Source: Candidatus Saccharimonadota bacterium
Lineage (GTDB): Bacteria; Patescibacteriota; Saccharimonadia; Saccharimonadales; Saccharimonadaceae
Length of the DNA: 64,000 bases
Direction: 5' to 3'
NCBI GenBank assembly: GCA_017531585.1
Contig: JAFXKT010000002.1
Coordinates: 1 to 64,000, forward strand
Part shown: positions 41,679-43,005 of the stretch, piece by piece
Layout of the letters: each line of letters starts with the position of its first letter
Numbering within the stretch: the stretch's first letter is position 1
Translations under genes and position numbers: made by a program
The notes under the pieces: model-generated
What the model saw: the letters and a program-made list of their open reading frames with translations, nothing else
Told to the model about the DNA's origin: nothing
The model's database searches: none

Positions 41679-41730
41679 AAATAATTCCTATTATATAACC
41701 TAGCTATTAGCTAACTACTACTGGATATTA

Positions 41731-41790
41731 TATAATATAAGCATCCGAGAGAAAAAGACGAGCTTGCTCGTCTTTTTTAGAGGATGCGCC
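41731..41790 (+). ncRNA. Candidate mini-transcript with promoter and terminator
   Basis: TATAAT (41731-41736) is followed within about 20 nt by a terminator: GACGAG/CTCGTC with a CTTG loop and TTTTTT (41757-41778). The hairpin has U-runs on both strands and can also stop minus-strand transcripts. GCATCC (41741-41746) and GGATGC (41782-41787) can close a larger stem around it. If transcribed, the RNA would be only about 35 nt. Confidence 0.4.
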
Positions 41791-42072
41791 ATATTACGCC
41801 GAATGGTATAATATAAGCATGTAGAGCGCAGCTCTAGGAACTACGCTCTGATAAATTTGGTTTAGAGTCTTCGCCTAACGGCGTTGACTCTTTTTATTCT
41901 TCGTCACTCGGATACCGAGTTTAACTTCCACTCTCCACCATTTCAGGCAGATTGTCATAGCCATAACCTTTCTCACGGACTCTAGTAGAGCCTAGAATAC
42001 TTTTCATTAAGCCCGTGCGAGTATAACTGTCAGGCTCAATTACTTGAATAACGGGGCAAACCTCAGTCCCGT
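41752..42072 (-). ncRNA. Candidate minus-strand structured RNA with a pseudoknot
   Basis: A promoter on the minus strand (TTACAA-like -35 and TATAAT, 42079-42108) would give a transcript starting near 42072. Three pairings are visible: A, CACGGGACT with AGTCCGTG (42065-42073/41974-41981); B, GAGCCT with AGGCTC (42032-42037/41988-41993); C, CCCGT with ACGGG (42051-42055/42012-42016). A closes the domain, and B and C interleave, so the inner part would be a pseudoknot. The first U-run terminator on this strand is near 41752. I could not match it to tmRNA, RNase P, 6S or SRP RNA. Confidence 0.45.
41807..41895 (+). ncRNA. Candidate small RNA (about 77 nt) with own promoter and terminator
   Basis: TATAAT (41807-41812) is followed by an RNA from about 41819 to 41895. 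A 5' region can fold as GAGC/GCTC or AGAGCG/CGCTCT. The end is a terminator with GAGTC/GACTC and CGCC/GGCG stems plus TTTTT (41865-41895). The 14 bp TATAATATAAGCAT are identical to those of the mini-transcript promoter 76 bp upstream. No plausible peptide is encoded. Confidence 0.5.
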
Positions 42073-42078
42073 GCGTGG

Positions 42079-42108
42079 ATTATATATTGCTACAAATTTT
42101 CTTTACAA
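42079..42108 (-). promoter_or_regulatory. Promoter of the minus-strand structured RNA
   Basis: On the minus strand TTGTAA (complement of 42103-42108), an 18-bp spacer and TATAAT (complement of 42079-42084). The predicted start is near 42072, at the base of stem A. Confidence 0.55.
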
Positions 42109-42181
42109 GCGGAAGCATGATGATTATATGGGGTAGATTTCGAAAAACATGAGCATGATGTTTGCATTTGCTTTTTGGTGA

Positions 42182-42332
42182 TATAATTAAAATGTCTTAA
42201 GCTATATCATTAAAGTCGGATTATTCTATGCATCGCCGAAAGAAAACGGCACCGCATAGCAGAAGTTCGGCGAACAGTCCGATTTTTGTGATATGGCTTA
42301 AGACACCTTGCGGTGTCGTTTTTTATTTATTA
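42182..42332 (+). promoter_or_regulatory. Promoter, pseudoknotted leader and terminator upstream of orphan gene 42352 (riboswitch-like)
   Basis: TATAAT (42182-42187) begins a leader with an 18-bp closing stem, TGTCTTAAGCTATATCAT (42193-42210) with GTGATATGGCTTAAGACA (42288-42305). Inside, AAAGTCGGA pairs with TCCGATTT (42212-42220/42278-42286). TCGCCGAA (42233-42240) pairs with TTCGGCGA (42266-42273), and CTATGC (42226-42231) with GCATAG (42254-42259); these last two interleave as a pseudoknot. An intrinsic terminator GACACC/GGTGTC plus TTTTTT (42302-42323) shares GACA with the closing stem, so the two can compete. No known riboswitch class was recognised. Confidence 0.6.
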
Positions 42333-42351: not shown

Positions 42352-43005
42352 ATGATCCCAGGATTTAGTGAACGAAAACTGGCTAAAAAAATAGCGCATT
42401 CTCGTGGATTAGAGAAGGCAAAATACGCTTTAAAAGATTCGCTGCTTGGTATTACTTCTCAATTTGAAGATGTTTTTGCTTATCAAAATCTAGTTGTTGT
42501 CTTCTATGATTGGTATAGAACGCTTATAGTGCAGGCGCTTGGAAGAGACTGCTATAGAGAATGGGCTGAACTTTTAGTAAATAACCCTTCTGGAATAAGA
42601 TACTACACTATTAGATTATATGCTATTACTCTTGGAGTAATGAAAAGGAACGAAGAAGTAACAAGGGGAGAAGTGATTGATGCCGATGCGTTTCTAGATG
42701 CAAGAACGCGTCTTTTGAGACTAAAAGAGTCAGAACGAAATGAAATGAGGCAAGTGTATGATACTTTCTTGTGGTGGTATGATTCGGGGTTTGATGTTGC
42801 GGTTCTTGATCCGAATAGAATGCTAGAGTTAATGAAGGCAGTTGTTAATACGACGTATATGTTTAGCGATAAAGAAATGATAAATCTTATAGTTACGGGT
42901 ATGCCGATTGGGAGAGGCTTGGGTGCCGGCCATTTGTTTGATATCTCGCTACGGAAGGCATGTGCAGAAGCTCGCATAGCATATAATACGCTAAAAGCTA
43001 TATAG
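42352..43005 (+). CDS. Orphan protein controlled by a riboswitch-like leader
   Basis: The 217-residue soluble protein is largely helical (FVYQNLVVVFYDWYRTLIVQALGRDCYREWAELL-like) with no signal peptide, TM or motif that I recognise. GAGG lies 8 nt before the ATG. Codon use is more AGA/AAT-rich than in neighbouring core genes. It sits between a structured leader with a terminator and ftsA, which has its own promoter, so it is a single-gene unit. If the leader senses a metabolite, this gene should act on it, but the sequence does not say which. Confidence 0.7.
   Translation: MIPGFSERKLAKKIAHSRGLEKAKYALKDSLLGITSQFEDVFAYQNLVVVFYDWYRTLIVQALGRDCYREWAELLVNNPSGIRYYTIRLYAITLGVMKRNEEVTRGEVIDADAFLDARTRLLRLKESERNEMRQVYDTFLWWYDSGFDVAVLDPNRMLELMKAVVNTTYMFSDKEMINLIVTGMPIGRGLGAGHLFDISLRKACAEARIAYNTLKAI

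Follow-up and report, generated by a model that had tools for sequence, protein, structure and literature searches.

What occupies the gene-free gap between a dsbA-like gene (41678-40959, minus strand) and the open reading frame (ORF) at 42352 in a Candidatus Saccharimonadota genome? The gap lies within the first 64,000 nucleotides of contig JAFXKT010000002.1, a stretch that we call the window, in a genome of about 1.01 Mb with a completeness of 99.6%. It holds no ORF of at least 60 amino acids (aa), and the original prediction placed a structured RNA on its minus strand, with a length that would suit a housekeeping RNA. A stable minus-strand fold is indeed present, but the RNA is coding: it carries a conserved ORF of 29 codons. 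Opposite its 3' end, a plus-strand promoter, hairpin and terminator (41804-41896), overlooked in that prediction, make up a second gene. That this module of peptide ORF and antisense RNA gene is real is very likely, close to certain on the comparisons below, and we put the probability that it works as a type I toxin-antitoxin-like system at roughly 0.7.

Known RNAs did not account for the locus. Rfam gave no match to the gap region at gathering score and only chance-level matches at E≤5; RF00023 and RF00010 were unmatched and ARAGORN called neither a tRNA nor a tmRNA in the gap, in line with the original remark that motifs of tmRNA and RNase P RNA are not apparent. Both of these RNAs are encoded elsewhere in the genome (RNase P RNA at C4:439427-439772, tmRNA at C4:443925-444292). 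Pfam, NCBIfam and the PDB likewise contained no match. Together with the peptide-coding capacity and a copy number of four in this genome and zero to seven in relatives, this speaks against a housekeeping RNA.

A short peptide ORF and a predicted antisense RNA gene

The conservation that had been proposed as a check was found: the conserved block spans 41804-42139, and in one relative it is 94.7% identical there only. In the aligned copies each leader is followed by a ribosome-binding site and then a short ORF, which measures 19-32 aa across modules. The ORF of the window starts a few bases 3' of an AGAAAGG element and is too short for any customary ORF length limit. An ORF in another frame, MKSILGSTRVREKGYGYDNLPEMVESGS, was dropped, as L003 carries an extra base within it when compared with the window.

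The ORF was recovered from both sides of the module. R3, a model of the leader core that ends at the start codon and excludes the coding part, found 67 leaders in 61 sources. In 65 of these an ORF with at least six of eight alternating hydrophobic positions followed, against 244 of 6700 shuffled controls; the R3 training copies were picked partly by their ORF, so this leader test is not wholly independent of it. R2, a model of the antisense 5' part, gave 85 matches in 56 sources, of which 76 were used (the rest were duplicates of one place or weak), yielding 74 distinct segments. A ribosome-binding site and an ORF with at least seven of eight alternating hydrophobic positions were present in 53 of the 74, compared with 8 of 3700 Markov-shuffled and none of 74 reverse-complement segments.

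Among 44 distinct peptides, all of which had passed the seven-of-eight alternation filter, positions 3, 12, 16 and 18 were hydrophobic in every one, and positions 13, 15 and 17 were almost never so. Position 8 was tryptophan in 32 and position 17 arginine or lysine in 40. Polar and hydrophobic residues alternate strictly over positions 3-18, a pattern that would be expected of an amphipathic beta strand. Basic tails are optional, and the peptides of other copies are as diverse as MRVRITLWRVEITFGLCLKTKRKKVAQR (L003), MALRLTILGMSVELKVRFRKPKRKVRR (L045, the second copy in this genome) and MSISLKIWRLKVTLELRLAK (L106, the third). A second class of peptide, starting MTQFAFIIINF and exemplified by MTQFAFIIINFGKDKQPKKNKKD, was found in the sister genus g19 (L155, L160, L162 and L166). 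These peptides have a short FALIII-type stretch and stand behind the same leader and ribosome-binding site, with a recognisable antisense hairpin in most, as though a different peptide had been placed under the existing control part.

The plus-strand gene overlaps the 3' end of the mRNA, and its expected product is a small RNA of about 80 nt. Nearly every copy carries, on this strand, TGnTA(T/A)AAT, a hairpin with CUAG in its loop, a short GGUUU linker and a terminator hairpin with a T-run. This promoter is the best conserved of the locus. In 17 close copies the stem pairs of the first hairpin change together, one being A-U or G-C (8 and 8 copies) and another G-C or A-U (8 and 8). The terminator stem is wholly different in sequence between subfamilies while stem and T-run are retained; MAFFT misaligns these stems, which limits the covariation evidence there to that retention. 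A helix between terminator and codons proposed by RNAalifold on alignment A1 was discarded.

A strict pattern of promoter, CUAG hairpin and T-run was present in 57 of 65 intact modules and in 194 of 1890 shuffled controls. The pattern is loose: among the 57, at least L062 and L088 were anchored at a wrong place, but both have an R2 match of at least 26 bits at the right one. Among the other eight modules, five have an R2 match of at least 20 bits at the right place (L113, L090, L115, L058 and L102:873), L144 has a weak one (12.4 bits), and the contig of L070 ends after 63 bases.

The original prediction named a minus-strand promoter, and TTGTAA-18-TATAAT at 42108-42079 does match the promoter consensus at 10 of 12 positions; such sites are, however, no more frequent in the gap (2 found) than in shuffled sequence (2.2 expected). 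Support for this promoter comes from a conserved box just upstream, not from promoter-site frequency. The pattern YTYNYGCTT occurs upstream of 51 of 63 modules (shuffled mean 3.4, maximum 7), some 130-180 bases 5' of the start codon. In six genomes the box ACTYRTGCTTTT was found at 25 places, against 13 for the reversed pattern, and 16 of these loci, when examined, included one intact module and one remnant. The box, which thus lies elsewhere in relatives too, is not module-specific; it may represent an unusual -35 element or the site of an activator. Transcription would start near 42073, giving an mRNA that extends from about there to at least 41820.

Leader pairing and a proposed 5'-3' CUAG latch

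The 331-nt RNA folded more stably than its own shuffles (z -6.5). Taken by itself the leader was only mildly stabler than its shuffles (z -1.8); much of the stability stems from the hairpins at 41818-41896. The structure that evolution has kept differs from the one first drawn. The proposed closing stem (42065-42073 with 41974-41981) can form but is not conserved. Instead, 41970-41982 pairs with 42009-42021, its partners co-varying in relatives, and the two interleaved stems do not correspond to the conserved structure either.

The conserved helix, P2, joins CUCGC.GGGGCUU to the bases directly 5' of the ribosome-binding site in the 17 close copies. As alignment A4 shifts P2 in one subfamily, it was tested by duplex energies and not by column pairs. 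Across 45 distinct modules, cognate arms gave a mean of -14.2 kcal/mol and non-cognate arms -12.05 kcal/mol, and none of 2000 random matchings, which ignore kinship, was as good.

A second, predicted interaction would link the leader to the 3' end of the mRNA through two CUAG sites. In 53 modules, the base 3' of the leader CUAG and the base 5' of the 3'-loop CUAG were G-C in 31, A-U in 20 and another combination in 2. In a larger set of 83 modules, 18 of them from outside the genus, this position could pair in 74 and the other flank in 68, where random assignment gave means of 57.1 and 53.3; none of 5000 permutations was as high at either flank. Nine of the 83 rows are exceptions at the first position and seven of these are G with A. 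For several close copies the CUAG of the terminator hairpin had been taken, and most of those seven show a matching CCUAG in the 3' loop in the 53-module set. On a quick tree, each side of the latch changed 10 times. All four supported independent pairs of changes were in step at the first position, and at the second 4.2 of 5 pairs were in step on average, with none opposite. The concerted change of both CUAG sites supports a 5'-3' latch.

The leader site and the antisense loop are identical in sequence, since each is a match for the mRNA 3' loop. Most simply, the antisense RNA would compete with the leader for that 3' loop. We propose that the minus-strand mRNA encodes a basic amphipathic peptide of 19-29 residues behind a structured leader in which P2, directly before the ribosome-binding site, presents a CUAG that would pair with the CUAG loop of the 3' hairpin. 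The resulting latched mRNA would be restrained in its translation. The plus-strand RNA, some 80 nt long and with perfect complementarity to both the mRNA 3' hairpin and the 3' end of the ORF, would use its loop to take the place of the leader at the 3' loop. The duplex of mRNA and antisense RNA may then be cut by RNase III, a gene for which is present in the genome. If both RNAs are made, the antisense RNA would act as the repressor of a peptide that would damage the cell making it, probably at its membrane. The positions of all elements are given in Table 1.

Table 1. Sequence elements of the module and its flank in the window, with strand and supporting observation
Element	Positions	Strand	Observation
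Conserved upstream promoter box ATGCTTCCGCTTGTA (family consensus about ACTYRTGCTTTT)	42104-42118	-	YTYNYGCTT pattern
TATAAT, predicted -10 of peptide mRNA	42079-42084	-	identical in L001 and L043
Leader hairpin 1 (ACGGG...CCCGU)	42049-42073	-	in 17 close copies, some covariation
Leader helix P2, 5' strand	42009-42021	-	co-varying duplex
Leader latch site UCUAGG	41991-41996	-	co-varies with 3' loop; inside P2
Leader helix P2, 3' strand, adjoining ribosome-binding site	41970-41982	-	co-varies with 42009-42021
Shine-Dalgarno element GAGAAAGG	41967-41974	-	conserved as GAGAAAGGAG in most close copies
Short ORF, 29 aa, MAMTICLKWWRVEVKLGIRVTKNKKSQRR; second ATG at 41958	41875-41964	-	ORF pattern of family
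Antisense terminator hairpin and U-run, over last codons and stop of short ORF	41864-41896	+	stem and T-run kept
Antisense hairpin 1, loop CUCUAGGAA; the mRNA 3' hairpin on the minus strand	41823-41849	+	co-changing stem pairs
3' latch site CCUAGA in mRNA 3' hairpin loop	41833-41838	-	complementary to 41991-41996
Antisense promoter, extended -10 TGGTATAAT	41804-41812	+	TGnTA(T/A)AAT in nearly all copies
Bidirectional terminator-like hairpin outside conserved module	41752-41777		sequence inspection

Copies, distribution and decay

The four copies in this genome are that of the window, L045, L106 and L107. BLAST of 41900-42085 found the region in 5 of 41 neighbourhood genomes, and a degenerate core pattern was present in 11 of 45 genomes of the genus, with clusters of three in G045, G021 and G058. 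A 21-base core occurred in five named records, all from uncultured Saccharibacteria. Tandem arrays with a spacing of about 300 bp were found in G042, G004, G058 and G045.

At the level of the family, R3 matched 89 of its 394 genomes, from 5 of 61 genera and chiefly from two; most matches in g19 were not inspected singly. Of 22 R3 loci that were inspected, 19 had the module architecture, backed by R2 in 16 and in most of these weakly, and three did not (L169, L170 and L173). These three are false matches, so that genera g54 and g21 drop out and g1, g19 and g174 remain. In the class (E≤1e-4), R3 matched 22 of 294 genomes from 2 of 128 genera, all within the family. In the phylum (E≤1e-3) it matched 7 of 379; outside the family the one match inspected was false, and G787 and G843 are uninspected. 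BLAST of the module against 72,556 plasmid and 50,697 phage records found no match, and searches with two further viral patterns yielded nothing. Matches of viral contigs to CTAGGCTCTACTAGAG (L031 and L032) proved unrelated when inspected.

Decayed copies are unequal in what they retain. L038:6789, L039:5474 (also L193), L076 and L005 keep the antisense half but have lost the leader together with the 5' half of the ORF. In L154 and L167 the ORF is cut short by an in-frame stop close to its start codon, and the hairpin on the opposite strand is kept. The converse, an intact ORF that lacks its own antisense promoter, was seen once, in L120:2286. This pattern fits a toxin with its antitoxin, although it is no proof of one.

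Type I toxin-antitoxin systems and other readings

A type I system consists of a short toxin gene and an antisense RNA that overlaps it. The ORF behind 65 of the 67 leaders is of toxin size (usually below 60 aa), and at the level of sequence the antisense gene has its own promoter and terminator over the mRNA. Several observations weigh against this interpretation. The peptide is amphipathic and basic, whereas nearly all known membrane toxins of type I are hydrophobic and alpha-helical (PMC8309996); we found no hydrophobic alpha-helical transmembrane segment in the peptides, whose residues alternate and form no continuous hydrophobic stretch, apart from the short FALIII-type one of the g19 class. 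The contrast between synonymous and non-synonymous change is weak (pN/pS 0.70 in six early copies). The module contains no separate terminator for the sense strand, and L120:2286, the last of the eight modules missed by the strict pattern, has an intact-looking ORF in a tandem array without its own antisense hairpin and promoter before the next module. Four supported pairs are also too few for significance in a sign test of the latch (p 0.125).

The same sequence evidence would apply to a small-peptide gene with a cis-antisense regulator whose peptide is not toxic and serves instead as a stress or membrane peptide, as a signal, or as a product aimed at the host bacterium of the epibiont. The optional basic tails, and a second peptide class set on the same leader and antisense frame in a sister genus, would suit such a role. 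Tandem arrays with diverged peptides and antisense-only remnants are better suited to the logic of addiction, and we consider a peptide that is not a toxin rather unlikely. The antisense-only copies (L005, L038:6789, L039:5474 and L076), together with the superior conservation of the antisense promoter, could also mean that the plus-strand RNA is the main product, acting in trans, and that mRNA and peptide are secondary. We give this very little weight, as ORF and leader are equally conserved in most intact copies and the small RNA varies freely in sequence with its own mRNA strand.

A non-coding repeat or a mobile element resembling a MITE, without a function for the cell, would explain why the module is multi-copy, patchy and found in tandem. 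Selection on the ORF, ribosome-binding site, antisense promoter and terminator, and on two co-varying interactions, makes this highly improbable; the plasmid and phage records gave no match, and no terminal repeats were seen, though no systematic search was made for them. The least credible alternative is a cis-acting leader, riboswitch or attenuator, of the dsbA-like gene, which is the next minus-strand gene in the window and runs in the same direction. Across the 67 modules, the nearest downstream ORF of at least 110 aa had the same direction in 32, the opposite direction in 30 and was absent in 5, and with this mixture the module does not serve to control the neighbouring dsbA-like gene. 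It also contains an ORF of its own, and the terminator-like hairpin at 41752-41777 intervenes.

For the type I toxin-antitoxin-like reading, the closest architecture appears to be that of aapA/IsoA of Helicobacter. The full-length aapA mRNA does not support translation, and opposite its ORF an antisense RNA of 80 nt is encoded (PMC6733600). The two systems share a chromosomal location, several copies, a peptide of about 30 aa, an antisense RNA of about 80 nt opposite the small ORF, and a long-distance 5'-3' interaction in the mRNA, seen here as covariation (PMC6733600). They differ in phylum, no relation of the module having been found in Rfam, Pfam or NCBIfam, and in the peptide, which in aapA has an alpha-helical membrane segment where ours has a beta-like alternating pattern. 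In our module, moreover, one side of the proposed latch is a CUAG located 5' of the ribosome-binding site, and the other is the loop of a 3' hairpin.

Converging transcripts that overlap at their 3' ends and share short sequences outside the overlap are also described for fst/RNAII of the par locus of plasmid pAD1 (PMC4147584). The antisense terminator of the Saccharibacterial module differs in that it falls inside the final codons of the ORF. The CUAG sequences of leader and antisense loop, being identical, would compete and not pair directly.

In Escherichia coli, ldr/rdl and ibs/sib comprise several short peptide genes, each with a cis-antisense RNA as in the module, and the ldr genes are clustered in tandem. 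Their peptides are hydrophobic and helical, unlike those described here, and to our knowledge their sequences are unrelated to the module.

Whether these peptides form a new class of type I toxin, an amphipathic beta-strand peptide with a basic tail that would be membrane-active or amyloid-like and is controlled by an antisense-copied CUAG latch, is a more tentative matter; the idea, which would make it the first in the Candidate Phyla Radiation and one multiplied in tandem within genomes of only about one megabase, is possible but doubtful. According to a review, the membrane type I toxins described by 2021 came from Proteobacteria and Firmicutes only and all had an alpha-helical membrane domain (PMC8309996). 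Our literature search, which had subscription papers and preprints outside its scope, found no report of a type I toxin-antitoxin system in Saccharibacteria, the Candidate Phyla Radiation or Patescibacteria. If the interpretation is true, a multi-copy, tandem family among the ultra-small, epibiotic Saccharibacteria would broaden such systems in two respects, the range of taxa that carry them and the chemistry of their peptides. The dozens of co-varying sense and antisense pairs would form a natural set for comparing latch and antisense competition, and ORFs of 19-29 codons within structured intergenic RNA would illustrate why genes of this kind evade annotation.

Two features flank the module. 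A terminator near 41752 was part of the original prediction, and a hairpin with a U-run does lie there, but outside the conserved block. The hairpin, within 41720-41790, is framed by GCATCC/GGATGC and preceded on the plus strand by a second TATAATATAAGCAT, which repeats part of the antisense promoter region (41807-41820) in direct orientation. On the other side, positions 42178-42330 (plus strand) could encode a separate rod-like RNA (z -7.1), whose TATAAT lies near 42183 and whose terminator is at 42302-42323. Its best Rfam matches at E≤5 are sub-threshold miRNA families. L005 retains this putative RNA at 90.8% conservation, and the module copy in L070 has beside it a relative whose arms are TGTCTTAAATCA / TGATTTAAGACA.
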